A stretch of DNA of 64,000 bases. It comes from an uncultured Lachnospiraceae bacterium. GTDB taxonomy: Bacteria > Bacillota > Clostridia > Lachnospirales > Lachnospiraceae. Both the position numbers and the translations under genes were made by a program. The notes under the pieces are model-generated. The model saw nothing but the letters and a program-made list of their open reading frames with translations. It was not told the origin of the DNA and searched no databases. The stretch spans positions 38,009-102,008 of the forward strand of contig CANOCU010000006.1 in NCBI GenBank assembly GCA_947564645.1. Reading direction: 5' to 3'. This document shows positions 4,782 through 27,560 of this stretch, in pieces; position 1 is the first letter of the stretch; the number at the start of each line of letters is the position of its first letter.

Positions 4782-4852
4782 AAACGGTCTGTCCTCCCAC
4801 CGGATTTCCTTTTCAATCATCTTATCCCTATTCTACCACTTTTATCCGCTTT

Positions 4853-4884
4853 ATGGGAATATCGGAATTTCATGATATTCCCAT
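4853..4884. promoter_or_regulatory. 11-bp inverted repeat at treC stop / FadR-type regulator promoter
   Basis: ATGGGAATATC and GATATTCCCAT form a perfect 11-bp inverted repeat with a 10-nt spacer that includes the treC stop codon. No T-run follows on either strand, so a terminator is unlikely. A weak -35 (TTCCCA) in the left arm and -10 TAGAAT at 4835-4830, 18 nt apart, suggest an operator for autoregulation of the FadR-type gene. Confidence 0.45.
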
Positions 4885-6537
4885 ATTTCCAAGAACCAGA
4901 TGTTCATAGGGCTCCAGGATGTAGCGCTCTTCTGCCGCAGCCACGTCTTTTTCCCGGTCCGCGTAATTTTCCAACAGCACCTGATACGCACGCCACGCAT
5001 CTTTCAGGCGAATACTCTGTCTTGCCCTGTCCAGGTTACAGATCACGACGATCTGCTGTTCTCCCAGTGTTCTTACGTAGGCCATCACCAGATCCGTTTC
5101 CGTCTCTTCAAAAGAGATCTCACCTCTTGCGATCACCGGATACCGCTTCCGCATGGCAATCAGCTTCTTATAAAAGGCAAGAATGGAATCTTCGTCCTTT
5201 CTCTGCGCTTCCACCGTGATCTCACTCCGAAAGGCATCGGACATGGGAAGCCACGGTTCTGCCTCCGAAAAGCCCCCGTACCGTTCTCCAGTCCACTGCA
5301 TGGGCGTTCTGCCATTGTCCCGGGATCTGGCTGCCAGGACTGTCAGCGCCTCTTCCTCCGTCCTGCCCCGCTCCAACAGGATCTGATAATAATTCAGGCT
5401 TTCCACATCCCGGTACCGGTCTATGGAAGGATAGTGGGCGTTCAGCATCCCGATCTCCTCCCCCTGATAGATATACGGTGTGCCGCGCATCAGATGGATC
5501 ATGCCTGCCAGCATTTTGGCCGACGCCTTCCAGTAAGGACCTTCATCCCCCAGTCTGCTTACGATCCTGGGCTGGTCATGATTACACCAGAAAAGCGCAT
5601 TCCAGCCACCGCCTTCCTGCATACCCATCTGCCACTCGATGAAGAGTTCCTTCAACTTCTTATAATCCGTATCCATAAGCCCCCACTTGTCGCCATCCTT
5701 ATAATCCGCCTTCAGATGATGGAAATTAAAGCACATGGAAAGCTCTTTTTCCCGGGGTGCGGAATACCGGATACAGTGCGCAAGCGATGTGGAAGACATC
5801 TCACCCACCGTCACAAACTCCTCGATTCCCGCGTCCGCCACCAGTTCTTTCAGATATTCGTGAATATGGGGACCGTCGCTGTAGAAACGCCGCCCGTCTC
5901 CTTCCAGATCATCCTCCATCCGTTCCGGCTTGGAGACCAGATTGATCACATCGAACCGAAATCCCTGAATGCCTTTTCCCTTCCAGAATCGCAGGATCTC
6001 TTTCAGTTCCTCCCTTACTTCCGGGTTATCCCAGTTTAAATCTGCCTGGGTCACATCGTACAGGCGAAGATACCATTTGCCCAGGGCAGGGACATATTCC
6101 CATGCGGAGCCCCCGAATTTGGACTGCCAGTTGGTAGGCGCCCGGTCCGGCGTCCCCTCCTTGAAAATATAGTACTGCTGATATTTCTCCTCTCCCGCCA
6201 GCGCCTTTTCAAACCATTCATGCCGGGTGGACGTATGATTAAACACCATATCCAGCATAATGCCCATCCCCCGCTCCCCGCTGCGCCTGATCAGTTCCTC
6301 CAGATCCTCCATCGTTCCAAACTGCGGATCGATCTTCCGGTAATCCGCCACATCGTATCCGTTGTCTCTCTGCGGCGAGATAAAAAAAGGCGTCAGCCAC
6401 AGATAATCCACTCCCAATTCCTGCAGGTAGTCCAATTTCCCGATCACGCCGGGGATGTCTCCAAAGCCATCCCCGTTCGTATCCCGAAATGACTTCGGGT
6501 AGATCTGATAAACCACTTTATCTCTGAAATCCGTCAT
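4870..6537 (-). CDS. treC: Alpha,alpha-phosphotrehalase (GH13)
   Basis: This 555-residue cytoplasmic GH13 enzyme hydrolyses trehalose-6-phosphate, the product of trehalose PTS uptake, to glucose and glucose-6-phosphate. The start is set at the ATG at 6537, preceded by GGAAGGGAAG; the longer frame upstream overlaps the end of treP and lacks GH13 homology. Catalytic residues are D196 (GFRFD), E246 (TVGEM) and D321 (CNHDQPR). TreC hallmarks are LTPFFISPQRDNGYDV near residue 48 and DLEGDGRRFYSDGPHIHEYL at 211-230, which bind the sugar phosphate and are absent from oligo-1,6-glucosidases. It follows treP by 67 nt in the same operon, with treR divergent upstream. The identification is firm. Confidence 0.95.
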   Translation of the reverse strand: MTDFRDKVVYQIYPKSFRDTNGDGFGDIPGVIGKLDYLQELGVDYLWLTPFFISPQRDNGYDVADYRKIDPQFGTMEDLEELIRRSGERGMGIMLDMVFNHTSTRHEWFEKALAGEEKYQQYYIFKEGTPDRAPTNWQSKFGGSAWEYVPALGKWYLRLYDVTQADLNWDNPEVREELKEILRFWKGKGIQGFRFDVINLVSKPERMEDDLEGDGRRFYSDGPHIHEYLKELVADAGIEEFVTVGEMSSTSLAHCIRYSAPREKELSMCFNFHHLKADYKDGDKWGLMDTDYKKLKELFIEWQMGMQEGGGWNALFWCNHDQPRIVSRLGDEGPYWKASAKMLAGMIHLMRGTPYIYQGEEIGMLNAHYPSIDRYRDVESLNYYQILLERGRTEEEALTVLAARSRDNGRTPMQWTGERYGGFSEAEPWLPMSDAFRSEITVEAQRKDEDSILAFYKKLIAMRKRYPVIARGEISFEETETDLVMAYVRTLGEQQIVVICNLDRARQSIRLKDAWRAYQVLLENYADREKDVAAAEERYILEPYEHLVLGNMGIS

Positions 6538-6604: not shown

Positions 6605-8557
6605 TCAGATTCCTCCGTCTTCCCTGTTCCTGAAACTTGCCACCACCGACTCTTTTGCGCGAACCTGCATTCCTGTATGGAACCGGATGTCCTGCGCGCT
6701 TCCTTCCTCGGTGACAACACACACCGTCACATCCGGATGCCCTGCCGCCTTGATCTTCGCTCTGTCAAACCGGATAAGCGGCGTCCCGGCGCTGACCTGC
6801 TGCCCTTCCTGCACCAGATATTCGAATCCGTCCCCGTTCATGCTCACGGTATCAATACCGATGTGCAGCAGCACTTCCATCCCGTTTGCAAGCCGCAGTC
6901 CGCAGGCGTGCCTGGATTCTGCCATCACCACCGCAACCTCGGCGTCTGCCGGCGCATATAAGATTTCGCCTTCCGGCAGGATCGCCATGCCGTCACCCAT
7001 GATCCCTTCCGAGAAAACACCGTCCCCCACTTCCGCCAGCGGGATCGCTTTCCCGGATAAAAACGCGCTCAGCTTTTCCGGCGCCGCACTCCTGCCTGTT
7101 CCGTCTGCGGTCTTGACCGGTTCCGCAGTCTCATCTGTCTGCTCTGTCTGCATCCGTCTCTTTCCCACGACTACGGTCAGGAAGAACGGCACTGCAAGTG
7201 CGATTGCCATACAGATTGCAAAGGAAATCATGAACTGCGGCTGGATGGACAGGATACCCGGAAGGCCGCCTACCCCGATCGCATTCGCCGTGGTTCCCGT
7301 GGCCACACAGACGACCGCCGCGATGCCGGAACCGATCATACCGCAGACAAACGGAAAGCCTCTCTTTAAGTTAACACCGAAGATAGCCGGTTCCGTGACG
7401 CCGAGATAACAGGAAATACAGGCCGGAACATTGACTTCCTGCGCTTCCGGATCTTTTCTCTGCAGCCAGATCATGCCAAGGACCGCAGAACCCTGCGCGA
7501 TATTGGATAAAGCGATCATCGGCCACAGCATGGTTCCGCCGTAATCCGCGATCAGCTGCAGATCGATGGCGTTCGACATGTGGTGCAGTCCCGTGATGAC
7601 AAGCGGTGCGTAGACAGCGCCGAAGACTACGCCAAACACCACCTTAAAGGTTCCTGTAATACCCGCAAATACGAGGGAAAAAACCGCCGCGCCGATCTTC
7701 CAGCCGATGGGCCCCAGTATAAAATGCGCCGCCATCACCGATAATAGCAGACTGCAGAACGGCACTACGATCATGGAGATGACCTGCGGCGTGATCCTGC
7801 GGAAGAATTTCTCCAGATAGACCAGCGTAAATGCCGCCAGGATCGCCGGGATCACCTGCCCCTGATAGCCGATCATATTGACCTGAAAGCTGCCGAAATT
7901 CCACTTCGGGATATCCGCCGCCGCGGTTCCTGCAACCGCGTAAGCATTTAACAGCTGCCCGGACACCAGTGTCAGACCAAGGACAATGCCAAGCATCTGC
8001 GTCGTGCCCATCTTCCTGGTCACCGACCAGCAGATCCCCACCGGAAGCATATGGAACACCGCCTCCCCGATCAGCCACAGGAAACTGTCTATCCCTGCCC
8101 AGAACTGGCTGATATCGCACAACGTCTTCGTTCCGTTTTCGAACAGATACAGGCTGTCGATACAGTTTCTGAAACCAAGGATCAAACCTCCCGTGATAAT
8201 CGCCGGAATCAGTGGGGCAAAGATCTCTGCCAGTGCCGTGATCACCCGCTGCAGCACGTTCTGATTCTTCTTGGCCGCCTGCTTGACGGCATCCTTCGAT
8301 ACGCCCTCAATCCCCGCCTCTTTCACAAAGTCATTGTAGAAATCGGCTACCGTATTCCCGATGATGACCTGAAACTGTCCCGACTGCGTAAAACTTCCCT
8401 TGACTGCCTTCATGGCTTCAATTGCTTTCACATCCGCCTTGCCCGGCTCTACCAGCGCAAAACGCATTCTTGTCATACAATGCGAAACCGCTGCGATATT
8501 TTCTTTGCCGCCTACCAGCTGCAGCAGCTGTCTTGCATCCTCCGCATACTTACCCAT
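6605..8557 (-). CDS. treP: Trehalose-specific PTS transporter EIIBCA
   Basis: This 650-residue membrane protein imports and phosphorylates trehalose using phosphoenolpyruvate via HPr. Domains in order are EIIB (residues 1-85, phosphocysteine C27 in SHCMTRMRF), the polytopic EIIC (about 105-465) and a fused EIIA-Glc-type domain (about 500-650) with phosphohistidine H565 in EVLLHIGIDTVSMNG. Many trehalose EII proteins lack the EIIA part, so this one is self-contained. The ATG at 8557 is chosen because GGAGG lies 7 nt upstream and EIIB begins there; the extension to 8665 is basic and non-homologous. It is the first gene of treP-treC and is divergent from treR, with a TreR-type palindrome between them. 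Confidence 0.95.
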   Translation of the reverse strand: MGKYAEDARQLLQLVGGKENIAAVSHCMTRMRFALVEPGKADVKAIEAMKAVKGSFTQSGQFQVIIGNTVADFYNDFVKEAGIEGVSKDAVKQAAKKNQNVLQRVITALAEIFAPLIPAIITGGLILGFRNCIDSLYLFENGTKTLCDISQFWAGIDSFLWLIGEAVFHMLPVGICWSVTRKMGTTQMLGIVLGLTLVSGQLLNAYAVAGTAAADIPKWNFGSFQVNMIGYQGQVIPAILAAFTLVYLEKFFRRITPQVISMIVVPFCSLLLSVMAAHFILGPIGWKIGAAVFSLVFAGITGTFKVVFGVVFGAVYAPLVITGLHHMSNAIDLQLIADYGGTMLWPMIALSNIAQGSAVLGMIWLQRKDPEAQEVNVPACISCYLGVTEPAIFGVNLKRGFPFVCGMIGSGIAAVVCVATGTTANAIGVGGLPGILSIQPQFMISFAICMAIALAVPFFLTVVVGKRRMQTEQTDETAEPVKTADGTGRSAAPEKLSAFLSGKAIPLAEVGDGVFSEGIMGDGMAILPEGEILYAPADAEVAVVMAESRHACGLRLANGMEVLLHIGIDTVSMNGDGFEYLVQEGQQVSAGTPLIRFDRAKIKAAGHPDVTVCVVTEEGSAQDIRFHTGMQVRAKESVVASFRNREDGGI

Positions 8558-8591
8558 TCTGAATCCTCCATTCCTCCGCCTTTTTTGATTC

Positions 8592-8608
8592 CGCGCTACG
8601 TGAGCGCG
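8592..8608 (-). other. Short GC hairpin in the treP leader
   Basis: CGCGCT and AGCGCG pair perfectly around a 5-nt loop, 35-50 nt upstream of the treP start. It is not followed by a T-run. It may affect mRNA stability or translation; no function is shown. Confidence 0.3.
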
Positions 8609-8634
8609 TCGTTTCTCCTGTCCATCGCCTCTAA

Positions 8635-8650
8635 ACTTGTTTAAACAAGT
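8635..8650. promoter_or_regulatory. TreR operator
   Basis: ACTTGTTTAAACAAGT is a perfect 16-bp palindrome in the treP-treR intergenic region. It ends two bases before the treR -35 box and lies about 80 bp upstream of treP. Its position and symmetry fit a GntR/HutC regulator acting on both divergent genes. Confidence 0.8.
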
Positions 8651-8652
8651 AA

Positions 8653-8681
8653 TTGACTTTTGCATTTTCCATTTTTATAAT
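8653..8681 (+). promoter_or_regulatory. Promoter of treR
   Basis: TTGACT (8653-8658), a 17-nt spacer and TATAAT (8676-8681) form a near-consensus sigma-A promoter 46 bp upstream of treR. It abuts the operator, consistent with autoregulation. Confidence 0.8.
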
Positions 8682-8726
8682 GGAATCATACATTTACTAC
8701 TTCCACTATTAAGAAAGGAACCTTTC

Positions 8727-9458
8727 ATGCCAAAAGCCATCTACGAAACGATCTATAAAGATTTAAAGCAGAAAATTGAAAACGATGTTTTCGCCTATCA
8801 GGAACTTCTCCCATCGGAAAACACCCTGATCCGGACTTATGACTGCTCCCGCAATACCCTGCGCCGGGCCGTCAGTCTCCTGGTGACCGACGGCTATGTG
8901 CAGACCATGCAGGGCAAGGGCGTCCGCAATATCTATCAACCCATAACGCAGACCGCCTTCACCATCGGAGAGATCGAGAGCTTCCGGGAATCAGCCCTCC
9001 GCAACGGTCATCATCCCCATACAAGCGTCCTTCTCTTTACCGAATTTGCGATAAGTGAGAAACAGGCCCAGACCACTGGCTTTCCTGCGGGAACGCAGAT
9101 CTACTATATCCAGCGGCTCCACTACCTGGACGATATGCCGCTGATCCTGAACCATAATTACTTCCTGAAAGAAGCCGTCCCCGGCCTCACCAAAGAGATC
9201 GCGGAAAACTCCATCTATCATTATCTGGAAAATACGCTGCATATGACGATCGTGAACAGCAAACGGATCATGACCGTGGAAAAGATGACACAGATCGATG
9301 AGAAATATCTGAAAATGAACGCAGAAGATTATAATTGCATGGCAGTGGTCAGCAGCCAGACCTACAACAGCGACGGCGTAATGTTTGAATATACCCAGTC
9401 CAGGCACCGACCCGATCATTTCCGCTTCTACGACAATGCGGTCAGGAAGTCTGTCTGA
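8727..9458 (+). CDS. treR: Trehalose operon repressor, GntR/HutC family
   Basis: This 243-residue regulator has an N-terminal GntR winged helix (about 5-70: YETIYKDLKQKIENDVF, LPSENTL, SRNTLRRAVSLLVTDGYV) and a C-terminal UTRA effector domain (about 90-240) that in TreR proteins senses trehalose-6-phosphate. It is divergent from treP-treC with a perfect palindrome between them. The start at 8727 follows AAAGGAA; a longer frame from 8637 would begin inside the operator and is rejected. Confidence 0.92.
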   Translation: MPKAIYETIYKDLKQKIENDVFAYQELLPSENTLIRTYDCSRNTLRRAVSLLVTDGYVQTMQGKGVRNIYQPITQTAFTIGEIESFRESALRNGHHPHTSVLLFTEFAISEKQAQTTGFPAGTQIYYIQRLHYLDDMPLILNHNYFLKEAVPGLTKEIAENSIYHYLENTLHMTIVNSKRIMTVEKMTQIDEKYLKMNAEDYNCMAVVSSQTYNSDGVMFEYTQSRHRPDHFRFYDNAVRKSV

Positions 9459-9531
9459 TTGTCTGCTGCGGGAAGCGGCCATTTATTAGATCGTTTACTA
9501 TAATAGGGAAAAAGAGTTCACATAGAAAGTT

Positions 9532-9590
9532 TGGAAGTTGAAACTTCCATTACGCATTCAGGGATATTGCAGACATAGCCAGCAATATCC
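9532..9590 (+). other. Two hairpins in the leader of the 9614/9689 gene
   Basis: TGGAAGTT/AACTTCCA (9532-9549, 2-nt centre) and GGATATTGC/GCAATATCC (9562-9590, 11-nt loop) are perfect inverted repeats of 8 and 9 bp, just upstream of the ribosome binding site at about 9604. Neither is followed by a T-run. They may be operator or leader structures; the gap between treR and the next gene otherwise shows only a GC-rich stem near 9470. Confidence 0.4.
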
Positions 9591-9613
9591 ACGCAGAGGT
9601 AAAAGAGGTAAAA

Positions 9614-9688
9614 ATGGAGAAAAGCAGAAAAGCATCTATAAGCATCGCGTTAGGTATTCTTTTTTGAGGCAGTGTTCTGATCGGATAC
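9614..9688 (+). pseudogene. 5' part of membrane protein gene, broken by in-frame TGA
   Basis: An ATG at 9614 with a good AGAGG site is in frame with the ORF starting at 9689. Codon 18 (9665-9667) is TGA; the flanking codons encode a hydrophobic helix (SIALGILF then GSVLIGYM). A single TGA for TGG change would explain the break. This suggests a recent nonsense mutation or a sequencing error, leaving the downstream ORF without its first helix and native start. Confidence 0.55.
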
Positions 9689-10183
9689 ATGCCCATTCCG
9701 GAATATACACTTGAATTGACATGTATCTCTAATTTATGTACCGGTATTTTACTGCTTTTTACCGGAATAAATACAGCAAAGAAAAAGATTAAAATTCCGA
9801 GTGTTATTTATCATATGTGGCTTGTGACGATTCTGCTTGTCTGCATCATATCATGCATCGGACATTTTAATTTTCATGGCGCCTTTTTCTTCTTACATCT
9901 GGTAAATCCGCTCCTGTTTCTGATTTACTATCTGGTTTTCATCGATGACACAAAAAGATCAAAGCAAATACTGCTCACACCATTCCCCGTGCTGTTCTAT
10001 CTTATTTTTGATTACATAGTCGGAAAGTTAAGGGGAAGGTTTATCTATGGCATATTCGAGGTTAAGGAGACAGATTTCGCCTCTCTGCTATTGGTCCTAT
10101 GCGGTGTCTGTCTTTCTTTGTTGGTAATTGCTGTTATCACACAATACATAAATCAGAAGTTGAAGCGGTTAAGGACCAGATGA
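9689..10183 (+). CDS. Uncharacterised membrane protein (probably N-terminally truncated)
   Basis: This 164-residue hydrophobic protein has about five predicted membrane segments (near residues 8-26, 38-57, 62-84, 95-110 and 130-150) and a basic C-terminus (NQKLKRLRTR). I do not recognise the family. The first available ATG has only a weak ribosome site, whereas an in-frame ATG at 9614 has a strong one but is separated by a TGA codon. AT-rich composition differs from the neighbouring sugar genes, which may indicate separate ancestry. It ends one base before a convergent nuclease-family remnant. Confidence 0.5.
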   Translation: MPIPEYTLELTCISNLCTGILLLFTGINTAKKKIKIPSVIYHMWLVTILLVCIISCIGHFNFHGAFFFLHLVNPLLFLIYYLVFIDDTKRSKQILLTPFPVLFYLIFDYIVGKLRGRFIYGIFEVKETDFASLLLVLCGVCLSLLVIAVITQYINQKLKRLRTR

Positions 10184-10456
10184 TCACAGCGTGATCTCCA
10201 GATCAATGCATCCATATTTTTTCATACACGCGATCGCCTCTTCCAAAGACATACCAATCTTCTCCTGTATTCTTTGCAGGATCGTTGTGTCATCCAACCC
10301 ATCTTCATGTCCTATCTCAATAAGCATTTTTGCCTGCCCCTGCTGCATACCCTGCTGCATGCCCTGCTGCATACCCTGGCGCATCCATTTCTCAGACTCT
10401 GTCTCAATGATCGTTCCGCCCATAACATTCACCAGCCTTTCTTCCTGCCTGGTCAG
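10184..10456 (-). pseudogene. C-terminal remnant of an Rpn/PD-(D/E)XK-type nuclease gene
   Basis: The frame encodes about 90 residues resembling the tail of Rpn-family (putative transposase/recombination nuclease) proteins: an EER..NVM...ET segment, the repeated MQQG units (three in a row) and a helical end SLEEAIACMKKYG. The catalytic N-terminal nuclease domain is missing. The only in-frame start is GTG at 10432, without a convincing ribosome site. The homologous frame begins right at the cls stop codon (10458-10460), so the 5' part was probably lost by deletion at that point. It is likely nonfunctional. Confidence 0.6.
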
Positions 10457-10457
10457 G

Positions 10458-12035
10458 TCACAACAACGGCGCCGCCACCTTCATCAGACTCCCCAGCAGC
10501 TTCACCGTCCACTTCTCCTGCCGCACCGTCTCCTTCGTCGCCTGCCTGCACTGCTTAAGCGTCGCCTGGAAATCCGCCTCGATCTCCGGGATGCAGTCCG
10601 TATCGTACTGATAGGTGGCGCATTCGAAATGGTGATACAGGCTCCGGTAATCCAGATTGATGGTGCCTACCACCGCCTCCCTGTCGTCGCTGACAAATAC
10701 CTTCGCATGGACAAATCCCGGCGTATACTCGAAGATCTTCACGCCCGATTCCAGCAAGGAAGCATAGTGGGTCTTGGCCAGTGCATAGGGAATCCGCTTG
10801 TCAGGAATCCCCGGCAGGATCAGCGCCACTTCCACGCCTCTTTCCGCCGCAAACTTAAGCGCCGTCTCCATCTCCCCGTCCAGGATCAGATAAGGCGTCA
10901 TGATATGCACATATTTAAGGGCCCGGTTCAGCATATCCATATACACCCGCTCCCCCAGCTGGTCCTCGTCCAGCGGCCGGTCGCCGTAAGGGATTACATA
11001 CCCCTTTGCCTCCTGCACCGGCAGTGTGGGACAGGCAAGGAATGTCTCGAATTCCGCCTTCCCGCCGTCCATACCCCACATCTGCAGAAACATCAGGGTA
11101 AAACTTTTCACCGCTTCCCCCTTGACCATGACGGCCGTATCCTTCCAGTGTCCGAACTTCACCTTCTGGTTGATATATTCGTCCGCCAGATTGACGCCGC
11201 CGTTAAAGGCGGTATGCCCGTCGATCACCAGGATCTTCCGATGATCCCGATAATTATAGTGGGTGGAGACAAAGGGCGATACCGGCGCAAAAGTCTTGCA
11301 CTTGATCCCCAGCTTCCGCAGGCGCTTCGGATAATCATGGGGCAGCAGCGCAAACTCGCAGGTACCGTCGTACAGTAGGCGCACATCCACGCCCTGCGCC
11401 GCCTTCTTCGCCAGGATCTCCAACACCCTGCCCCACATGATCCCCTCGCTCACGATAAAATATTCCAGGAAGATAAAATGTTTCGCCGCCTCCAGTTCCG
11501 TAAGCATCGCGTCGAACTTATCTTCCCCCAGCGGAAAATATGTGACAGCCGTCTTATCATACACCGGATGACAGCCGCTCCGCCCCATATAATGCGCCAG
11601 AGCCGCCACACCGCCATTCTCCCTGGCCAGGCGCGCTGCCACCTCCTCGTCCTGCCGGATGCATGTTCTCGTGTCCGAGATCACCTTACTCGTCCACTCC
11701 TTTAAGACCCGGTGCCCCAAGTCGCTCTGGGTATATACGAACAGCAGCACGCCGAACACCGGCAGCAGCAGAATCACGATCAGCCATGTGATCTTCGCCG
11801 TCGGATTGATCCGGCTGTTCAGCAGATAGACAACGATCACAAAGGTCAGGACTACCGTGCCGCCGAAAATATGCGGGATCACGCCCCGAAACCATTCGAA
11901 TATGCTAAACAGGATCAGAACCTGCGCCAGTAACATCAACAGAATCAGGCCGAAACGGCTGAATACGGCGTGAACGATCCCGCCTTGTCCCTTTTTCAAT
12001 AAGGTGAGTCCTTTGTTCTTATAATCGATCGACAT
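10458..12035 (-). CDS. cls: Cardiolipin synthase, PLD family
   Basis: This 525-residue membrane enzyme condenses two phosphatidylglycerol molecules to cardiolipin and glycerol. Three N-terminal hydrophobic helices (about 30-48, 60-73, 82-101) are followed by two phospholipase D HKD motifs: H265, K267, D272 in RDHRKILVIDG and H443, K445, D450 in FVHAKVFVSDD. Start at 12035 is preferred since AAGGAG sits 5 nt upstream; the frame extends further to 12092 without homology. The neighbouring GH13 gene lies upstream on the same strand (79-bp gap), so co-transcription is possible though functionally unexplained. Confidence 0.93.
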   Translation of the reverse strand: MSIDYKNKGLTLLKKGQGGIVHAVFSRFGLILLMLLAQVLILFSIFEWFRGVIPHIFGGTVVLTFVIVVYLLNSRINPTAKITWLIVILLLPVFGVLLFVYTQSDLGHRVLKEWTSKVISDTRTCIRQDEEVAARLARENGGVAALAHYMGRSGCHPVYDKTAVTYFPLGEDKFDAMLTELEAAKHFIFLEYFIVSEGIMWGRVLEILAKKAAQGVDVRLLYDGTCEFALLPHDYPKRLRKLGIKCKTFAPVSPFVSTHYNYRDHRKILVIDGHTAFNGGVNLADEYINQKVKFGHWKDTAVMVKGEAVKSFTLMFLQMWGMDGGKAEFETFLACPTLPVQEAKGYVIPYGDRPLDEDQLGERVYMDMLNRALKYVHIMTPYLILDGEMETALKFAAERGVEVALILPGIPDKRIPYALAKTHYASLLESGVKIFEYTPGFVHAKVFVSDDREAVVGTINLDYRSLYHHFECATYQYDTDCIPEIEADFQATLKQCRQATKETVRQEKWTVKLLGSLMKVAAPLL

Positions 12036-14191: not shown

Positions 14192-15688
14192 TCAAAGTCT
14201 TCCCACTTCCCGGCAGATCCGGTCATACTCCTCTTCATCCAGCCTGTATTTCTTCTTATATAAGAAGTAGGAAAGCAGCATCAGCGCGCACGGCAGCACC
14301 GTCATCGTGATCAGAAGCCCCGTACTCTGCCACGCCATGACACCACTGTATCTGCCGCCCGTCGTTCCAAAGATAACGCTCGATATCTCCGTCAGCTTCT
14401 GCTCCTCCGTGAGCAGTCCCTGGGCACACTGCTGTTCTAAGTCGGAGATCTGGTTGGTATAACCCGTCACCCCGAAGAGCAAATAGGAGGCGGACGTAAG
14501 CGCCACGATCAGCGCCGAACTCATTTTGGTGATAAAAGGCCGAAGCGACGTGATAATGCCCTCATCTCTCGTTCCGAATTTATATTCATTGTACTCCACC
14601 GTATTCATAATGGAGATCATCATGATCAGATAGAAGCAGTACTGCCCGAAATTGGAAAGCATAAAGCCCACCGTGAGCAGGCCGAATTTCCCCATGCCGT
14701 TCCCCGGAACCGGCAGGCACACAAGCATCAGACCATATCCGGCCACCGAGAACGCCGCCATGATCCCCATCAGCTTCTTCCGATGAAGCCGCCTGGAAAT
14801 AGCCGGATAGAAGACCATCAGAAAGGCCGTGGCAAACATTCCCACCATCGTAAACAGCGAATACAGCCCGCCATCATAGCCAAAGGTGAAATAAATATAT
14901 GTGGAACCGATCCCGCCGCCCACGAGTCCGTTTCCCACCTGCTGGATCAGGAAAATGACCGCGATCCACACCAGCTGGTCATTCCGGGCGATCGTTCGGA
15001 AGACCTGCCTTAAGGAGAATCGCTCCTTTTTCTTTTCCGCAGGAACCGCTTCCCGGTTCTCCCGCACCCCGAACAGCGTAAACAGGATAAAAAGCGAGGA
15101 CAGAACGGCGATCACCATGGCGATCCGCCCGTAAGCCACCGCCGTGCTGCCGCCGATCGCCGTCTGCCCCGTGCTGAACATGGGGATCAGGATGGATGCC
15201 AGCACCCCGCCGATCCCTGCAAAGAGCGTCGCCCTGGACGTAAACTGATTCCTGGCGTCGGCATCCGACCCCAGCGCCGGGATCATCCCCCAGTAGGAAA
15301 TATCACTCATCGTATAGGTAATACTGAATGCAAAATACATCAAGGCAAAGAACCACACAAAAGCCCACCCCTGCAGCTGCACATTGAACAGCAGGACGAT
15401 CACCACCGAAGTGGACAGTCCCCCGGCTAGCAGCCAGGGCTTAAACTTCCCGTATTTCGACCGGGTCCGCTCAATGATATTCCCCATCACCGGGTCGTTT
15501 AAGGCGTCGAACACCCGGGCCGCGATCATGATCCCCGTGACAGCCGCCACCTGTGCGCCGCTTAGGGTATGCGTAAACAGCACGAAGGTCAGCAGATAAC
15601 TGTTGATCAGGCTGTACACCATATCCCTGCCCACCGTCCCCAGCGGAAAATACAGCAGATTCTTCTTCGTTCGCTTCTTGTCTTCCAT
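14192..15688 (-). CDS. GPH-family sugar:cation symporter (MelB-like)
   Basis: This 498-residue, roughly 12-helix transporter belongs to the glycoside-pentoside-hexuronide:cation family. Typical marks are an N-terminal NLLYFPLGTVGRDMVYSL, the cytoplasmic loop DALNDPVMGNIIERTRSKYGKFKPWL, and TYTMSDISYWGMIPAL. The ATG at 15688 is fixed by GGGAGGAAAAG; the frame continues upstream for 136 codons of non-homologous, antisense-like sequence. It precedes the extended GH13 enzyme, so an alpha-glucoside is a plausible substrate, but the sequence alone does not show it. Confidence 0.9.
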   Translation of the reverse strand: MEDKKRTKKNLLYFPLGTVGRDMVYSLINSYLLTFVLFTHTLSGAQVAAVTGIMIAARVFDALNDPVMGNIIERTRSKYGKFKPWLLAGGLSTSVVIVLLFNVQLQGWAFVWFFALMYFAFSITYTMSDISYWGMIPALGSDADARNQFTSRATLFAGIGGVLASILIPMFSTGQTAIGGSTAVAYGRIAMVIAVLSSLFILFTLFGVRENREAVPAEKKKERFSLRQVFRTIARNDQLVWIAVIFLIQQVGNGLVGGGIGSTYIYFTFGYDGGLYSLFTMVGMFATAFLMVFYPAISRRLHRKKLMGIMAAFSVAGYGLMLVCLPVPGNGMGKFGLLTVGFMLSNFGQYCFYLIMMISIMNTVEYNEYKFGTRDEGIITSLRPFITKMSSALIVALTSASYLLFGVTGYTNQISDLEQQCAQGLLTEEQKLTEISSVIFGTTGGRYSGVMAWQSTGLLITMTVLPCALMLLSYFLYKKKYRLDEEEYDRICREVGRL

Positions 15689-15786: not shown

Positions 15787-16329
15787 TTATTTTGTATGCT
15801 CTTCCGCAAACCGCAGCAGCGATATGACCGGCACGATCAGGATACCGCAGAAGAAATTGCTCACACCGTGAATAAAGTCCCAGGGCAGTCCCGCGATGAT
15901 CCATGCGATCATTCCCTTGAAATTCAGCCCGAACAAGATCGCCTGCGCCGGTGCATACAGCGTGCCGAACAGGAACCCATGGGCCGCGCACACCGTCATA
16001 TAGACGAAGGGCTGATATCTCTTCGGCATCTGCCGCGGCAGCAGCATCACTGCTCCCCAGAGGACTGTCCATAGATACAGGTATGGAACCCACCACGTGG
16101 CGAATCCGCTGAAAATACCGTTCAGAAGCACATAAAGATAGATCGGATACAGCGCCTTCTTCCGGTAGACCACGGTAAAGGCCACCACGAAGGTGCCTAA
16201 CAGATGCACGTTGGGAAGCACCTCCATCAGCATTTTGGAAGCGTACATCACCGCCCCCAGCATAGCGAAAACCGTGAGTTCTCTGGTCGTCAGCCGCTTG
16301 CCGCCCGTCTTACTCCACCTTGAGGGCAT
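15787..16329 (-). CDS. ECF transporter S-component, predicted cobalamin-type
   Basis: This 180-residue membrane protein has about six hydrophobic segments and the look of an energy-coupling-factor substrate-binding (S) subunit: RELTVFAMLGAVMYASK at the N-terminus, a short helix-breaking PNVHLLG loop and a GLPWDFIHGVSNF segment near the C-terminus. No EcfA/EcfT genes lie nearby, as expected for group II S-components that share a module. The ATG at 16329 has GGGG 7 nt upstream and overlaps the end of the DUF4430 gene by 20 bp. Because the operon leader is a cobalamin-class riboswitch, cobalamin or a precursor is the likely substrate. Assignment to CblT/CbrT-like proteins is inference. Confidence 0.8.
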   Translation of the reverse strand: MPSRWSKTGGKRLTTRELTVFAMLGAVMYASKMLMEVLPNVHLLGTFVVAFTVVYRKKALYPIYLYVLLNGIFSGFATWWVPYLYLWTVLWGAVMLLPRQMPKRYQPFVYMTVCAAHGFLFGTLYAPAQAILFGLNFKGMIAWIIAGLPWDFIHGVSNFFCGILIVPVISLLRFAEEHTK

Positions 16330-16780
16330 AGCTGTCCCCTTCCACAATCTCCGTAACGTCAACGCCCGAAGCCGCATACTCGTCGTTGACATAGAAGGCC
16401 CAGTAAACGCCGTCCGCATCATAATCCGCGGTAATGCCGTTCACCGTCTTCACATAAAGGCCGTATTCCCCTTCCTCACCGTCGATCAGGTTAAGCTCCT
16501 GCAGCGCCTCCCCCACGGTCTCCTTGTCCGTATGGATCGTAAACTGCGTCTCGTTACCGTCCTTGTCCGTCACGGTCAGGGCAAATTCCTTACTGCCCTC
16601 TCCCAGCTCGCCGCCTTCCCGCTGCACATCCGCACCTGCCTGTGTGCCCTCCGCACCGGAAGCCGCCCCACTGTTCTTACTGCCATTACAACCAACTGTA
16701 CCGAGTGCCATAGCCACCATAAGCACCATACAAAGGATGAATGACGATACTTTTCTGTTGTTGCTGTGATTCATCTGCAT
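16310..16780 (-). CDS. DUF4430 lipoprotein, putative surface cobalamin-binding protein
   Basis: This 156-residue lipoprotein has a signal peptide with lipobox GTVGC (Cys about residue 31), a short E/G/A-rich linker, and a DUF4430 domain (about 65-150) with LTVTDKDGNE..F..HT..ETVGEAL..L, YG.YV.TVNGI.ADY and YWAFYVND..A..GV. DUF4430 resembles the C-terminal beta domain of the animal cobalamin carriers transcobalamin and intrinsic factor. The ATG at 16780 has GGAG 9 nt upstream. It is the first gene after the riboswitch and overlaps the S-component gene. I infer that it captures corrinoid at the cell surface and passes it to the S-component; binding is not shown by sequence. Confidence 0.85.
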   Translation of the reverse strand: MQMNHSNNRKVSSFILCMVLMVAMALGTVGCNGSKNSGAASGAEGTQAGADVQREGGELGEGSKEFALTVTDKDGNETQFTIHTDKETVGEALQELNLIDGEEGEYGLYVKTVNGITADYDADGVYWAFYVNDEYAASGVDVTEIVEGDSYALKVE

Positions 16781-16933
16781 GTTTTCTGTCTCCTTTGTTT
16801 TATTTGTGCCGGACTCTACCTTAAAGTAAAAGTCTTCCCGGCGTCCTTTTCTCTCTGCGGCCGGCGCTCGCGGTCGTACCAACTGTCATGGACATCTGTG
16901 AATGGTATGGATAATCATTACTCTTCACAGTCG

Positions 16934-16956
16934 AAATGCGCATAAACTGCGCATTT
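16934..16956 (-). promoter_or_regulatory. Hairpin of the riboswitch expression platform
   Basis: AAATGCGCA and TGCGCATTT form a perfect 9-bp hairpin with a 5-nt loop, about 150 nt before the DUF4430 start. Its 3' arm overlaps ATTTCGACT (16931-16939 on the plus strand AGTCGAAAT), which is also perfectly complementary to AGTCGAAAT further upstream in the leader (about 16997-17005). The two pairings exclude each other, as expected for a switch. The rest of 16781-17036 holds only further stems such as CTGTGAA/TTCACAG; no gene was seen. Confidence 0.55.
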
Positions 16957-17036
16957 GCGATCCAATATGGTAACGGAGAATCTCCTCTGTCCGGATATTT
17001 CGACTTGACACAAATACGCTGCCGCCTTCTCAAAGA

Positions 17037-17192
17037 AACGCAGCCGTTTCTGTACTCTCCTGCTGCGTTCTGGCTTCAATGGCTTGTCCCGGACAGTGGC
17101 TTCCGGTCAGGCAGATATTTATTGTTTCCTATTTCTGTTACGTGTCTCACGGCGACGGGCTCGTACAGGATTTACACCTGTTTCCCCGGGCA
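17037..17192 (-). ncRNA. Cobalamin-class riboswitch
   Basis: Read on the minus strand, the leader has the cobalamin aptamer landmarks in order: GGGGAAACAGGTG.AAATCC (17187-17168), a C-rich CCCGTCGCC segment, then AAGCCACTGTCC (17102-17090), GGGACAAGCC and the B12-box-like GAAGCCAGAACGC (17077-17065). An 8-bp closing stem AACGCAGC/GCTGCGTT lies at 17037-17069. It starts just after a promoter and precedes the DUF4430/S-component operon. The match is by recalled consensus; covariance scoring was not possible. Confidence 0.85.
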
Positions 17193-17203
17193 GATTCTTA
17201 TCT

Positions 17204-17232
17204 ATCATAGTACTTTATGGCTGATTGGTCAA
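17204..17232 (-). promoter_or_regulatory. Promoter of the riboswitch operon
   Basis: TTGACC (17232-17227), 17 nt, TATGAT (17209-17204). The predicted start, about 17197, is at the 5' edge of the riboswitch. Confidence 0.75.
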
Positions 17233-17318: not shown

Positions 17319-18626
17319 TTATTTCTTCTTCGCATCCTTATTTAACGGCCGTACCATAAACAAACTGATCAGCAGCGCCACGATATAGAGCACGATCGTT
17401 AAGTACAGCACATTCTGGTATCCCACCGGATTGATGCTGTTGCCGTGGGAATCCTGCATAAATTCACCGGTACTGTTCACGATCAGGTTCGCCACCTGGT
17501 TACCCGTAAGTCCTGCAAACGCCCACGCCGAAAGTGTGATGCCGTGCAGCGCACTGATACTGCCCATTCCGTAATGATCGGAAAGCAGGGTCGGTACATT
17601 GGAGAAGCCACCGCCGTAACCTGCATTGACTACGAAGATCAGTCCCAGTACAAGCACTACCAGAAGCATGTTGCCCTGTCCGTTCTTGATGCCGCCGGTC
17701 ACCATTACCAATGCGGTAAAGATGATGGAAAGCACGAAGATCAGCTTGTAGATGGTGTTCCTGTCCTTCATGGTGTCAGCCCATGCGGAGAAACCGAGAC
17801 GTCCGCCTGCATTGAAGACTGCGGAAACCGTGGAGATCACGCCCACGGCGCCTGCCAGGCCGATACATTTCACGATCATCTTCTCCTGAGAGATCAATGC
17901 CAGGCCGCAGGTAATATTGATGTAGAACATCAACCAGATACCGATATAGTTGGCAACCGGTCTGGTCTTGATCACAGCCATAATACTCTGACCCTTCTCC
18001 TTCTTCTGCGGCTCATGCCAGCCTGCCGGTTTCTTCAGCAAGATATGGCCCGTGAACATCATCACAAAATATACCACCGCCAGGATCAGGAACATCTTGT
18101 AGATACCACCCTCTCCCAGATTGTCCAGCATCGCCTGCATGATCGGGCTGGCGATCGCCTTCGCCGCACCGAAACCTGCCACTGCCAGTCCGGTCGCCAG
18201 ACCCTTCCGGTCTTCAAACCATAGCATAAGCGTCTTGACGGGAGACAGGTAACCGGTTCCCAGACCGATACCCATGATAAAACCATAACATATGTAGATA
18301 CCGATAAGCGCCAACGGGCTCTGCTGATGCTGTCCGCCGTAATAGATGAAAAATCCGGTACCTGCCATACCTGCCGCGAAACAGATCGCTGCGATCAGGG
18401 ATGATTTGTGGATATCCTTCTCCACCACATTACCCAGGAATGCCGCCGACATACCCAGGAAGAAGATTGCGAAACTGAACGCCCACTCCGTCGCACCCTT
18501 GGAGAACCCGATATAATCTGCTATCTCCTGACTGAAGATCGACCAGCAGTAAACCGTACCGATACTGCAATGAAGTAAGAGCGCCGGAATCGCGGCACAA
18601 ACCCATTTGTTTTGACTCTTGTTCAT
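17319..18626 (-). CDS. OFA-type major facilitator (oxalate/formate antiporter family)
   Basis: This 435-residue, 12-helix MFS carrier belongs to the oxalate:formate antiporter family, whose members move small carboxylates. Visible marks are HCSIGTVYCWSIF in helix 1, YGFIMGIGLGTGYLSPVKTLMLWFEDRKGLATGLAVAGFGAAKAI, and NAGYGGGFSNVPTLLSDHYGMGSISALHGITLSAWAFAGL. It is a single-gene unit with its own promoter and terminator. The substrate cannot be assigned. Confidence 0.9.
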   Translation of the reverse strand: MNKSQNKWVCAAIPALLLHCSIGTVYCWSIFSQEIADYIGFSKGATEWAFSFAIFFLGMSAAFLGNVVEKDIHKSSLIAAICFAAGMAGTGFFIYYGGQHQQSPLALIGIYICYGFIMGIGLGTGYLSPVKTLMLWFEDRKGLATGLAVAGFGAAKAIASPIMQAMLDNLGEGGIYKMFLILAVVYFVMMFTGHILLKKPAGWHEPQKKEKGQSIMAVIKTRPVANYIGIWLMFYINITCGLALISQEKMIVKCIGLAGAVGVISTVSAVFNAGGRLGFSAWADTMKDRNTIYKLIFVLSIIFTALVMVTGGIKNGQGNMLLVVLVLGLIFVVNAGYGGGFSNVPTLLSDHYGMGSISALHGITLSAWAFAGLTGNQVANLIVNSTGEFMQDSHGNSINPVGYQNVLYLTIVLYIVALLISLFMVRPLNKDAKKK

Positions 18627-23907: not shown

Positions 23908-25809
23908 TCACGTCGCGATCGCGTTCCCCGTATACAGCTGATAGTATTTCCCCTGTTCCTCGATCAACTGATCGTGGGTGCCGCGCTCGATGATCCGGCC
24001 CTGTTCCAATACCATGATGCAGTCGGAATTTCTGACCGTGGAAAGCCTGTGGGCGATCACGAAGGTGGTCCGGCCCTTCATCAGCTTATCCATGCCGTCC
24101 TGCACGATACGCTCCGTCCTCGTATCGATGGAACTGGTGGCTTCGTCCAGGATCAGCACCGGCGGATCGGCGATGGCCGCTCTGGCAATGGCAAGCAGCT
24201 GTCTCTGGCCCTGGCTTAAGTTGGCGCCGTCCCCGGTCAGTACCGTGTCGTAGCCCTCCGACAGATGTCTGATAAACCCGTCCGCGTTGGCTAACTTCGC
24301 CGCCGCGATGACCTCCTCGTCCGTGGCGTCTAACTTACCGTAACGGATATTGTCCATGACCGTTCCCGTGAAAAGGTGGGTATCCTGCAGTACGATGCCC
24401 AGCGACCGCCGCAGATCCGCCTTCCTGATCTTATTCACATTGATGCCGTCATAACGGATCTTACCGTCCTGGATATCATAGAAACGGTTGATCAGGTTGG
24501 TAATCGTCGTCTTGCCTGCGCCTGTGGAGCCCACGAAGGCGATCTTCTGCCCCGGCGTGGCAAAAAGCTCCACGTCATGCAATACGATCTTCTCGTCGTT
24601 GTAGCCGAAATCCACACCGTCGAACACCACGTCTCCCTTGAGCTCCACATAGTCCACGGAATGATCCGCCTGGTGCTCATGCCGCCATGCCCAGCGTCCT
24701 GTGCGCTCTGCGCTCTCCACCAGTCTGCCGTTCTCTTCCCGGACATGGACAAGCGTCACGTAACCGTTGTCCGTCTCCGGCTCCTCGTCCATCATCTTGA
24801 AGATCCGCTCCGCACCGGCCATAGCCATGACGATGGAATTCAGCTGCTGGCTCACCTGGTTGATCGGTCCGTTAAAGCTCTTGTTGAAAGTTAAGAAGCT
24901 GGCCAGCGATCCAAGCGACAGACCGGAGATCCCGGAGAGCGCCAGCGCGCCGCCCACGATGGCGCAGACCACATAACTCACATTGCCAAGCTGCATGTTC
25001 ACCGGCCCTACGATATTGACCAGATAGTTGGCTCTGTCCGCACTGTGATACAGGTTATCATTCAATTCCCGGAACTTCTCTATGTTCTCCTCCTCATGGC
25101 AGAAGACCTTCACCACCTTCTGGCCTTCCATCATTTCCTCGATAAACCCGTTTACCTTACCGATATCCCTCTGCTGCTGCAGGAAATAGCGGCCGCTGAT
25201 GCCCGCCGTCTTGGCTGTCACCACCAGCATCACCGCCACCATCACAAGCGTCACCACCGTCAGCGGCACGCTTAAGATGACCATGCTGATAAAGACGCTG
25301 ACAATGGTGATCGCACTGTTAAATACTTGGGGCATGCTCTGGCTGACCAACTGTCTGATCGTATCCGTATCATTGGTATAGACGGACATGATATCCCCAT
25401 GGGAATGGGTGTCAAAATATTTGATGGGCAGCGTCTCCATATGGGAGAACAGATCGTTTCGCAGGTTCCGCAGAACACCCTGCGTCACATTGATCATGAT
25501 CCGGTTATAAAGATAGGCCGCCGCCACGCCGATGGCGTAGAAGCCCGCCACCCGCAGGATCGCTATCGCCAGCGGATGATAGTCCGCCACATCTGCCGTC
25601 AGCAATGGCTGTATATAATCGTCGATCAGACTCTGGATAAACATCGTCCCCTGGACATTGGCCAATACGCTGACCAGGATCAGCACCGCCACGATGACCA
25701 GATGCGGCCCGTAGCTTTTCATAACATATTTCATCAGTCTCTTAAAGATTCTGCCCGGATTCTCTATCCTCTTCTGTCCGGGCATTCTGCCTCTCATCGG
25801 TCCCGGCAT
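23908..25809 (-). CDS. Heterodimeric ABC exporter subunit, consensus NBD
   Basis: This 633-residue half-transporter has six membrane helices (about 35-330) and a C-terminal ATPase. The NBD carries GSTGAGKTT, NLSQGQRQLLAIARA and the canonical LILDEATSSIDTRTE with catalytic Glu. A basic glycine/proline-rich N-terminus precedes helix 1. It overlaps the upstream subunit by one base (TAATG) and so forms an obligate pair with it. Such exporters handle drugs or peptides; the substrate is unknown. Confidence 0.92.
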   Translation of the reverse strand: MPGPMRGRMPGQKRIENPGRIFKRLMKYVMKSYGPHLVIVAVLILVSVLANVQGTMFIQSLIDDYIQPLLTADVADYHPLAIAILRVAGFYAIGVAAAYLYNRIMINVTQGVLRNLRNDLFSHMETLPIKYFDTHSHGDIMSVYTNDTDTIRQLVSQSMPQVFNSAITIVSVFISMVILSVPLTVVTLVMVAVMLVVTAKTAGISGRYFLQQQRDIGKVNGFIEEMMEGQKVVKVFCHEEENIEKFRELNDNLYHSADRANYLVNIVGPVNMQLGNVSYVVCAIVGGALALSGISGLSLGSLASFLTFNKSFNGPINQVSQQLNSIVMAMAGAERIFKMMDEEPETDNGYVTLVHVREENGRLVESAERTGRWAWRHEHQADHSVDYVELKGDVVFDGVDFGYNDEKIVLHDVELFATPGQKIAFVGSTGAGKTTITNLINRFYDIQDGKIRYDGINVNKIRKADLRRSLGIVLQDTHLFTGTVMDNIRYGKLDATDEEVIAAAKLANADGFIRHLSEGYDTVLTGDGANLSQGQRQLLAIARAAIADPPVLILDEATSSIDTRTERIVQDGMDKLMKGRTTFVIAHRLSTVRNSDCIMVLEQGRIIERGTHDQLIEEQGKYYQLYTGNAIAT

Positions 25810-27560
25810 TACGCATCACCCTCCTTTTCGTCAAAGTCTCCGCTGCCTCCGGTCTGGGATTCATACACTTCACGGTAAATCTCATTGCTTAGCAGCAGCT
25901 CCTCATGGGTTCCGTAGCCGTCGATACGGCCTTCCTCCATGACAATGATATGATCCGCATGTTCGATACTGGATACGCGCTGTGCGATGATCAGCTTCGT
26001 GGTATCCGGAATCTCCTCCGCAAAAGCCCTCCGTATCTTCGCATCGGTGGCCGTATCCACGGCGCTGGTACTGTCGTCTAAGATCAGCACCTTCGGCTTC
26101 TTGAGAAGTGCTCTGGCAATGCACAGACGCTGCTTCTGTCCGCCGGATACGTTCGTGCCGCCCTGCTCTATGTAAGTGTGATAGCCCTTCGGCATCTTCT
26201 CCACAAATTCATCCGCACAGGCCAGCCGGCACACCCGTCTGCATTCCTCCTCGGTGGCGTCGGCGTTGCCCCAGCGCAGATTCTCCAGGATCGTACCCGA
26301 GAAGAGCACATTCTTCTGCAGTACCACCGACACCTGGTTCCGCAGGCTGTCCATGTCATACTCCCGCACGTCATGACCGCCCACATAGACTGCCCCTGTG
26401 GTCACATCATACAGGCGGCTGATCAGATTGACCAGACTGGTCTTCGAACTGCCCGTACCGCCCAGGATACCCACCGTCTCACCTGCCCGGATCTTCAGAT
26501 TGATATCATGCAACACCGCATTATTCTCGTCATTATAATAGGAAAAGTTCACATCCCGGAATTCGATATCGCCGCTTGGCACTTCGTGGATCGGGTTGAC
26601 CGGATTGGTCAGGTCGCTCTTTTCATTTAACACCTCACTGATCCGCCTGGCGCTGGCGATACTCATGCTCATCATGACAAAGATCATGGCCACCATCATC
26701 AGACTCATGAGAATGTTCATACAGTAGGTCATCAGACTCATCAGCTCGCCCGTCGTCAGCTCGCTCTGCACGATCATCTTCGCTCCCATCCAGCTGATCA
26801 GCAGTATGCAGGTATAGACCGTAAACTGCATCACTGGCATATTTAAGACCACATTCTTCTCTGCCTTGATGAAGATATCATAGATGGCCTGACTGGCCTT
26901 CCGTAATTTGGATGTCTCATAGTCTTCCCGCACGTAGGCTTTCACCACACGGATGGCGCTGACATTCTCCTGCACGGAGGCGTTTAACTCGTCGTACTTC
27001 GGAAAAGCCATCTGGAAATATTTCATCGCTCTTCTTATTATAAGGAAAAGAATACAGGCCAGCAGCACAAGCGCCACCAGATAGACCGTAGCCAGTCTGG
27101 CATTGATCATATAAGCCATGGACATGGCGCAGATCATGCTGATCGGCGCACGGAAACAGATACGCAGCAGCATCTGGTATGCCATCTGAATATTCGATAC
27201 ATCCGTGGTCAGCCTTGTCACCAGACCCGCCGTGCTGAACTTATCCAGGTTGGAGAAGGAGAAGGTCTGAATATTCTCAAACATCGCCTGCCGCAGATTG
27301 CGTGCAAAGCCGGTGGAGGCCCTGGCCCCGAACTTACCGCCCATGATACCGCACAGCAGACCGCACAGCGCCGCTCCCACCATAAAAGCTCCTACATAAT
27401 AGATATGGCGCATGTTCCCTGCCTCCACGCCGTCGTCTATGATCGAAGCCATCATCAACGGGATCAGCATCTCGAAGACTACCTCCAGGATCATAAAGAC
27501 CGGCGTCAGGACAGATGCTCTCTTAAATTCCTTGATCTGCGCCGCAAGTGTTTTGATCAT
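25809..27560 (-). CDS. Heterodimeric ABC exporter subunit, degenerate NBD
   Basis: This 583-residue half-transporter, first gene of the pair, has six helices (about 15-320) and an NBD with GGTGSSKTS, VSGGQKQRLCIARAL and LILDDSTSAVDTATD. Asp replaces the catalytic Glu after Walker B, the mark of the degenerate ATP site in asymmetric exporters. AAGGAG lies upstream of the ATG. The pair has its own promoter at 27630-27658. Confidence 0.92.
   Translation of the reverse strand: MIKTLAAQIKEFKRASVLTPVFMILEVVFEMLIPLMMASIIDDGVEAGNMRHIYYVGAFMVGAALCGLLCGIMGGKFGARASTGFARNLRQAMFENIQTFSFSNLDKFSTAGLVTRLTTDVSNIQMAYQMLLRICFRAPISMICAMSMAYMINARLATVYLVALVLLACILFLIIRRAMKYFQMAFPKYDELNASVQENVSAIRVVKAYVREDYETSKLRKASQAIYDIFIKAEKNVVLNMPVMQFTVYTCILLISWMGAKMIVQSELTTGELMSLMTYCMNILMSLMMVAMIFVMMSMSIASARRISEVLNEKSDLTNPVNPIHEVPSGDIEFRDVNFSYYNDENNAVLHDINLKIRAGETVGILGGTGSSKTSLVNLISRLYDVTTGAVYVGGHDVREYDMDSLRNQVSVVLQKNVLFSGTILENLRWGNADATEEECRRVCRLACADEFVEKMPKGYHTYIEQGGTNVSGGQKQRLCIARALLKKPKVLILDDSTSAVDTATDAKIRRAFAEEIPDTTKLIIAQRVSSIEHADHIIVMEEGRIDGYGTHEELLLSNEIYREVYESQTGGSGDFDEKEGDA

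Follow-up and report, generated by a model that had tools for sequence, protein, structure and literature searches.

A cobalamin-riboswitch operon pairing a DUF4430 lipoprotein with a CbrT-like ECF S-component, a probable corrinoid uptake locus in a Lachnospiraceae bacterium

Operon layout and the cobalamin-type leader

The window, a stretch of 64,000 nucleotides from an uncultured Lachnospiraceae gut bacterium, carries on its minus strand, in this order, a promoter-like site, a cobalamin-type aptamer, a leader of ~200 nt, a gene for a DUF4430 lipoprotein and a gene for an ECF S-component (Table 1). The S-component start ATG at 16329 yields the 20-bp gene overlap that an earlier note on this DNA had described; a longer ORF alternative begins at 16422 and is probably too long, because the alignments of 54 of 80 relatives begin no earlier than residue 28. 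That note had also read the overlap as an argument for a physical partnership of the two proteins: the overlap is real but is weak evidence alone, since the spacing of the genes varies across relatives from overlaps up to a gap of 89 bp (longest ORFs). The sigma-70 promoter candidate likewise weighs little alone, because the region holds two such sites versus 1.5 expected from shuffles. No intrinsic terminator or terminator-like site was found in the leader on the operon strand.

Table 1. Features of the operon, in window coordinates
Feature	Position	Strand	Evidence
Putative sigma-70 promoter, TTGACC-17-TATGAT	17204..17232	-	10/12 consensus match, just 5' of aptamer
Cobalamin-type riboswitch aptamer including P1	16986..17197	-	Leader covariance model, 129 bits (window among the leaders used to build it); RF00174, 22.9 bits at 17065-17185; covariation among relatives
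Remainder of leader	16781..16985	-	Fold and sequence; hairpin near 16931-16958 without U-run
DUF4430 lipoprotein gene, 156 aa	16310..16780	-	ORF (ATG at 16780, stop at 16310), Pfam, alignment; RBS-like AAAGGAG upstream
Lipobox cysteine codon, Cys31	16688..16690	-	Invariant in lipoprotein alignment A3
DUF4430 (transcobalamin C-terminal-like) domain	16331..16522	-	Pfam; family profile matches human transcobalamin-1
ECF S-component gene, CbrT-like, 180 aa	15787..16329	-	PDB 6fnp_A, 9.3e-5 (sequence) and 7.2e-4 (profile), sole match
20-bp overlap of lipoprotein and S-component genes	16310..16329	-	ORF coordinates

Two MFS genes that neighbour the operon, at 14192-15688 and 17319-18626, belong to sugar-type and monocarboxylate-type families, respectively, and we did not count them as part of it. 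The protein encoded at 17319-18626, beside the riboswitch operon, is closest to L-lactate and oxalate/formate transporters (under the NCBIfam cut-offs), and a homologue of it is also found upstream of the gene pair in four relatives (e.g. L001). We also considered the ABC proteins encoded at 23908-27560 as B12 importers and rejected them, both scoring best with MsbA-type exporters, below the cut-offs of those models.

The case for a cobalamin-class riboswitch, which the earlier note had placed ahead of the gene pair, is made by the relatives of the locus. An Rfam scan of the window at gathering score returned no match, and a covariance search of 701 bp with the leader in it matched RF00174 with E 0.001 and 22.9 bits, under the gathering score of 31.5; a genome-wide search with the same model (150 of 281 candidates scored) gave none at E <= 0.001. 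We then compared the window with 80 related loci, the best 80 of 305 candidates. A leader covariance model built from 32 leaders, the window's included, so that its 129 bits there arise by construction, matches 58 of the 80 related loci in addition to the window, in each case on the strand of the genes and before the DUF4430 gene ends, and it matches the window's genome in one place, the window locus (150 of 1004 candidates scored). In the alignment of these 32 leaders 27 of 45 consensus pairs show compensatory change and 94.9% of cells pair, falling to 26-42% (at most 41.5%) when the partner is slid by 1-3 columns, and none of 500 shuffled alignments reached any of five covariation measures. 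Moreover, Rfam scans of 36 distinct related loci detected Cobalamin at the gathering score in 12 (3/12, 0/13 and 9/12, with one locus scanned twice), and canonical cobalamin riboswitches of 90.9-108.5 bits precede the same gene pair in L030, L045, L068 and L073. On the basis that the relatives covary and some carry strong Cobalamin matches, we take the window aptamer, which alone is only suggestive, as cobalamin-type; covariation and the strong riboswitches in relatives rule out a chance look-alike. Judged by its sequence, the window riboswitch is a divergent member of the known RF00174 family. Its previously proposed span, 17037-17192, is too short, the 3' side of P1 lying at ~16987-16995.

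Twenty-two of the 80 related loci gave no match to the leader model: five have at most 170 bp of upstream sequence, and the other 17 show no aptamer despite upstream sequence, which counts against universal B12 control. Upstream genes were scanned in seven of these 17, and in six no B12 link was found there. The DUF4430-S-component pair of L074, for which no cobalamin riboswitch could be detected, is closely preceded by a thiamin pyrophosphokinase gene (4678-5415).

The two proteins and the import machinery of the genome

The first gene product matches PF14478 (DUF4430) at 4.8e-9, with 37 bits versus a cut-off of 23.8, and its 156 aa comprise a signal peptide, a linker and the DUF4430 domain only. 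It has the features of a bacterial lipoprotein, a signal peptide and a conserved lipobox cysteine, Cys31, invariant in 73 aligned sequences; residue -3 of the lipobox is Thr, which is less usual at this position. Searched against the PDB, the window protein retrieves Ruminococcus gnavus RUMGNA_00854 (3u7z) at 4.9e-14. The claim that DUF4430 resembles the C-terminal domain of transcobalamin and intrinsic factor proved correct at the level of the family: a profile (A6) built from a diverse set of 14 DUF4430 domains matched 3u7z at 1.7e-25 and then human transcobalamin-1 (4kki) at 1.2e-5, with nothing else in the PDB better than 0.03. It did not follow from the window protein alone or from the narrow clade profile (A3), neither of which reached transcobalamin in the PDB. 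Because the diverse profile matches transcobalamin-1, we regard the likeness as a real sequence relationship of the DUF4430 family, limited to the C-terminal domain. The N-terminal alpha/alpha barrel of transcobalamin and intrinsic factor, the half that makes much of the ligand site in transcobalamin, is absent from the 156-aa protein according to Pfam.

Neither Pfam nor NCBIfam offered a family for the second gene product. In the PDB its sole relative was chain A of 6fnp, in the sequence search (9.3e-5, 25.8 bits, over nearly the whole chain) as well as in the profile search (7.2e-4), and we took this chain (182 aa) as CbrT from its size. The entry is that of ECF-CbrT of Lactobacillus delbrueckii, which is reported to import cobalamin and cobinamide and to be functional when purified as well as in E. 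coli, CbrT alone binding cyanocobalamin at ~9 nM (PMC5997447). By this homology the window S-component belongs to a known kind and is likely a vitamin B12 membrane importer.

The genome also provides a motor on which such an S-component could operate. As the earlier note's appeal to a shared EcfAAT motor had implied, an EcfA-EcfA-EcfT module is present (G000:C54), with two ECF ATPases over the NCBIfam cut-offs, an EcfT (PF02361, 181 bits) and then TruA, and the genome has a second EcfT-like locus. A MetH-type methionine synthase is encoded as well (PF02310 in an 835-aa frame, 618 aa of which score 430 bits against NCBIfam metH, under the full-length cut-off of that model). The observation that no BtuFCD is encoded nearby holds more strongly than it had been made: no FecCD (BtuC-type) permease was detected in a genome-wide search of the 91% complete assembly, and the same search was positive in 13 of 14 control genomes. 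This leaves the S-component as the one candidate B12 importer found in this assembly. Corrinoid import by it is well supported.

Linkage of DUF4430 to ECF transporters and cobalamin riboswitches

Among the 80 related loci a DUF4430 gene lies ahead of the S-component gene on the same strand in 79, the only exception being L036 (4245-6537), where a RACo-type corrinoid-activator gene directly precedes the S-component gene instead. One of the six search patterns fell in the ORF part inside the lipoprotein gene, so this set favours linked pairs; a survey of the phylum does not carry that bias. Across 398 genomes of Bacillota, DUF4430 was found in 121 and a match to the S-component profile in 16, and in all 16, the window's own genome included, DUF4430 is encoded within 5 kb of the S-component. 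The other 15 genomes contribute 16 regions, 11 of which have a cobalamin riboswitch upstream on the strand of the cluster: inside the region itself in L135, L136, L140, L145, L146 and L147, just outside it in L148 and L149, and 5.5-8.5 kb from the DUF4430 match in L142, L143 and L144, where the genes in between may or may not form one operon. No upstream cobalamin riboswitch was found in the remaining five regions, L134, L137, L138, L139 and L141, the last of which ends at a contig end. In L140 the riboswitch is followed by DUF4430, the S-component and a cobalamin adenosyltransferase. DUF4430 is found on a Lactococcus plasmid together with a divergent 'cobalamin ECF transporter', an adenosyltransferase and a B12-dependent ribonucleotide reductase. 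In a plasmid record from Enterococcus it is the DUF4430 protein that bears the name cobalamin ECF transporter, so that an association of DUF4430 with B12 is already implicit in existing annotation.

We extended the survey to DUF4430 at large with 40 DUF4430-bearing genomes, picked by hand as about every third of the 121. In 34 of the 40, a cobalamin riboswitch is followed on its own strand, at no more than 5 kb, by a DUF4430 gene, versus 0.29 expected on the assumption that placement is uniform, with genome sizes rounded; one genome shows the opposite order, with the riboswitch up to 5 kb downstream of DUF4430. Counted by match, 61 of 88 DUF4430 matches in these genomes are riboswitch-linked; in most genomes part of the riboswitch candidates was scored, and one of the 136 riboswitch matches is under the gathering score. 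In three of the six genomes without riboswitch linkage (G077, G126 and G138) a contig starts no more than 1.4 kb from DUF4430. At least 31 of the 40 genomes encode EcfT within 3 kb of DUF4430 and on its strand, and none encodes FecCD within 3 kb. Both riboswitch and EcfT linkage are seen in 27 genomes and neither in two, taking EcfT from among the matches listed. The earlier note had named such a co-occurrence survey as a possible refuter, and overall it came out in favour. On the basis of the phylum-wide linkage to riboswitches and EcfT, with no linkage to FecCD, DUF4430 appears to accompany ECF corrinoid import as a general partner.

Several regions depart from the two-gene arrangement. The L146 operon consists of a riboswitch, a gene for an SLH-anchored cyclase-like protein with DUF4430, a second DUF4430 gene, EcfT, an EcfA fusion and an S-component. 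The first of these proteins (8364-11774, 1136 aa) combines a weak squalene-hopene-cyclase-like match (27.6 bits, cut-off 26.1) with DUF4430 and three SLH repeats, making it a possible two-domain bacterial B12 carrier. We also examined the toroid partner at L147, itself devoid of DUF4430, as a relative of the transcobalamin alpha-domain, and discarded it on finding that it matched squalene-hopene cyclases (3.4e-11), not transcobalamins. The idea of a two-domain 'intrinsic factor' thus comes from architecture only, since the L147 protein matches cyclases and the L146 match is weak. In G062, G165 and G240, DUF4430-S-component pairs (L137 5481-6382, L138 4442-5370 and L141 4086-4897) were found with no cobalamin riboswitch; the L137 pair adjoins genes for an NPN-dependent isomerase (group 22) and a Na+-pumping decarboxylase, L138 and L141 have ORFs of similar length in that place, and the three pairs perhaps serve a different substrate. 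Proteins of ~890 aa with the S-component domain at the C-terminal end are encoded near DUF4430 genes at L142 (4728-7412), L143 (7642-10302) and L144 (7429-10089), and in that of L143 Pfam places two ABC ATPase domains ahead of the S-component domain. Past the far end of the cluster, divergent cobalamin riboswitch pairs occur at L143 (11662-12122) and L144 (11450-11899), in two genomes of one genus, and the same two genomes have tandem pairs upstream of the cluster (L154 668-1131 and L155 3812-4274).

Interpretation and comparison with known systems

We consider it probable that the two genes form an operon for corrinoid uptake controlled by a cobalamin riboswitch, with a CbrT-type S-component on a shared motor and a DUF4430 lipoprotein that captures corrinoid. 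The operon would presumably be off when cobalamin is plentiful. The S-component would be the corrinoid-binding membrane subunit and would borrow the common EcfA-EcfA-EcfT motor of the genome. Anchored on the outer side of the membrane, the lipoprotein most likely captures corrinoid via its transcobalamin C-terminal-like domain and would either present it to the S-component or close over the S-component. From homology and linkage, capture and hand-over by the lipoprotein seem to us the most economical reading.

Because CbrT binds cyanocobalamin alone and ECF-CbrT works in E. coli and in purified form (PMC5997447), the lipoprotein is in principle not needed. The S-component might accordingly do all ligand binding, with the DUF4430 lipoprotein an accessory that stabilises, orients or gates it or anchors it to the cell surface. 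The sufficiency of CbrT in vitro, the presence in the window protein of the smaller transcobalamin-type domain only and the L036 S-component, for which no DUF4430 was found, all fit such a role, which we nevertheless judge unlikely: the homology is specifically to B12 carriers, the riboswitch linkage extends to 61 of 88 DUF4430 matches, and the occurrence of DUF4430 in the large SLH-anchored L146 protein of a riboswitch ECF operon suggests ligand capture over a mere scaffold.

Alternatively, the ligand could be a related salvage molecule, such as cobinamide or the lower-ligand alpha-ribazole, in place of intact cobamides. Alpha-ribazole is the ligand of the CblT system, and CblT and CblS stand under B12 riboswitches. 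That cobalamin salvage or DMB uptake is attributed to CblT/CblS (PMC6722938, PMC8123684), that ECF-CbrT imports cobinamide too (PMC5997447) and that the window S-component has no Pfam or NCBIfam assignment speak for this alternative. It is nonetheless improbable, given that the only solved relative is CbrT (in a PDB search; a CblT structure may or may not be among the entries), that relatives are linked to adenosyltransferase and B12-dependent ribonucleotide reductase genes, and that no FecCD-type importer was found that would bring in cobalamin otherwise. Least probable is that DUF4430 and the S-component form a general import module of lineage-dependent substrate, whose window copy could even serve a non-corrinoid: the neighbours of the L137 and L074 pairs and the 17 relatives without aptamer are compatible with it, but the aptamer in the window itself and in 58 of 80 close relatives and the phylum-wide linkage to cobalamin riboswitches oppose it.

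Beyond a probable corrinoid uptake operon in the window, we propose more tentatively, and with somewhat more doubt than conviction, that throughout Bacillota DUF4430 is the bacterial domain with which ECF importers capture corrinoid, and that it has a common ancestor with the domain that carries B12 in animal transcobalamin and intrinsic factor. If so, operons encoding an SLH-anchored cyclase-like protein with DUF4430 would hold bacterial two-domain 'intrinsic factors'. Partnerships like the one in the window are seen in many further Gram-positive bacteria. The data provide animal B12 carriers with a bacterial relative of known gene context, and they make DUF4430, until now without a function and present in 121 of 398 sampled genomes of the phylum, a testable candidate for the extracellular capture step. 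The new element is the DUF4430 lipoprotein partner, the S-component and the riboswitch belonging to known kinds; a literature search of mostly open papers, few of them in full, found no account of the DUF4430-S-component pairing or of DUF4430 in bacterial B12 uptake. B12 acquisition by gut Firmicutes is described as less well known than that in Bacteroidetes (PMC8941943).

Like BtuFCD, the proposed system would import corrinoid with the help of an extracytoplasmic binding protein, but the protein families are others and FecCD was not found in the genome of the window. BtuG of Bacteroidetes is an accessory surface B12-binding protein that works with a transporter, a role analogous to the one proposed here. 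BtuH is reported to be another, with a B12 domain that has no known structural homologues (PMC8941943). Both belong to Gram-negative outer-membrane systems. With transcobalamin, haptocorrin and intrinsic factor (4kki) the lipoprotein shares an extracellular location and a domain family whose profile matches transcobalamin-1 in its C-terminal domain; it differs in lacking the alpha/alpha barrel, in being a membrane lipoprotein versus a soluble carrier, and in that its ligand binding is putative. The R. gnavus DUF4430 relative of the lipoprotein is known here by its PDB name, 'putative metal binding protein'.

The closest parallel is ECF-CbrT, with which the window shares S-component homology over nearly the whole chain (6fnp) and a common EcfAAT motor, and whose cbrT gene is likewise reported to adjoin B12 genes, in the order nrdJ-cbrS-cbrT-pduO (PMC5997447). 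The two differ in that the similarity amounts to just 25.8 bits and in that the window S-component is translated with a DUF4430 lipoprotein, the comparison being with the CbrT protein. Next to larger ECF operons, the window operon would represent a slim form, a solitary S-component that presumably uses the motor of the cell, together with a DUF4430 lipoprotein.
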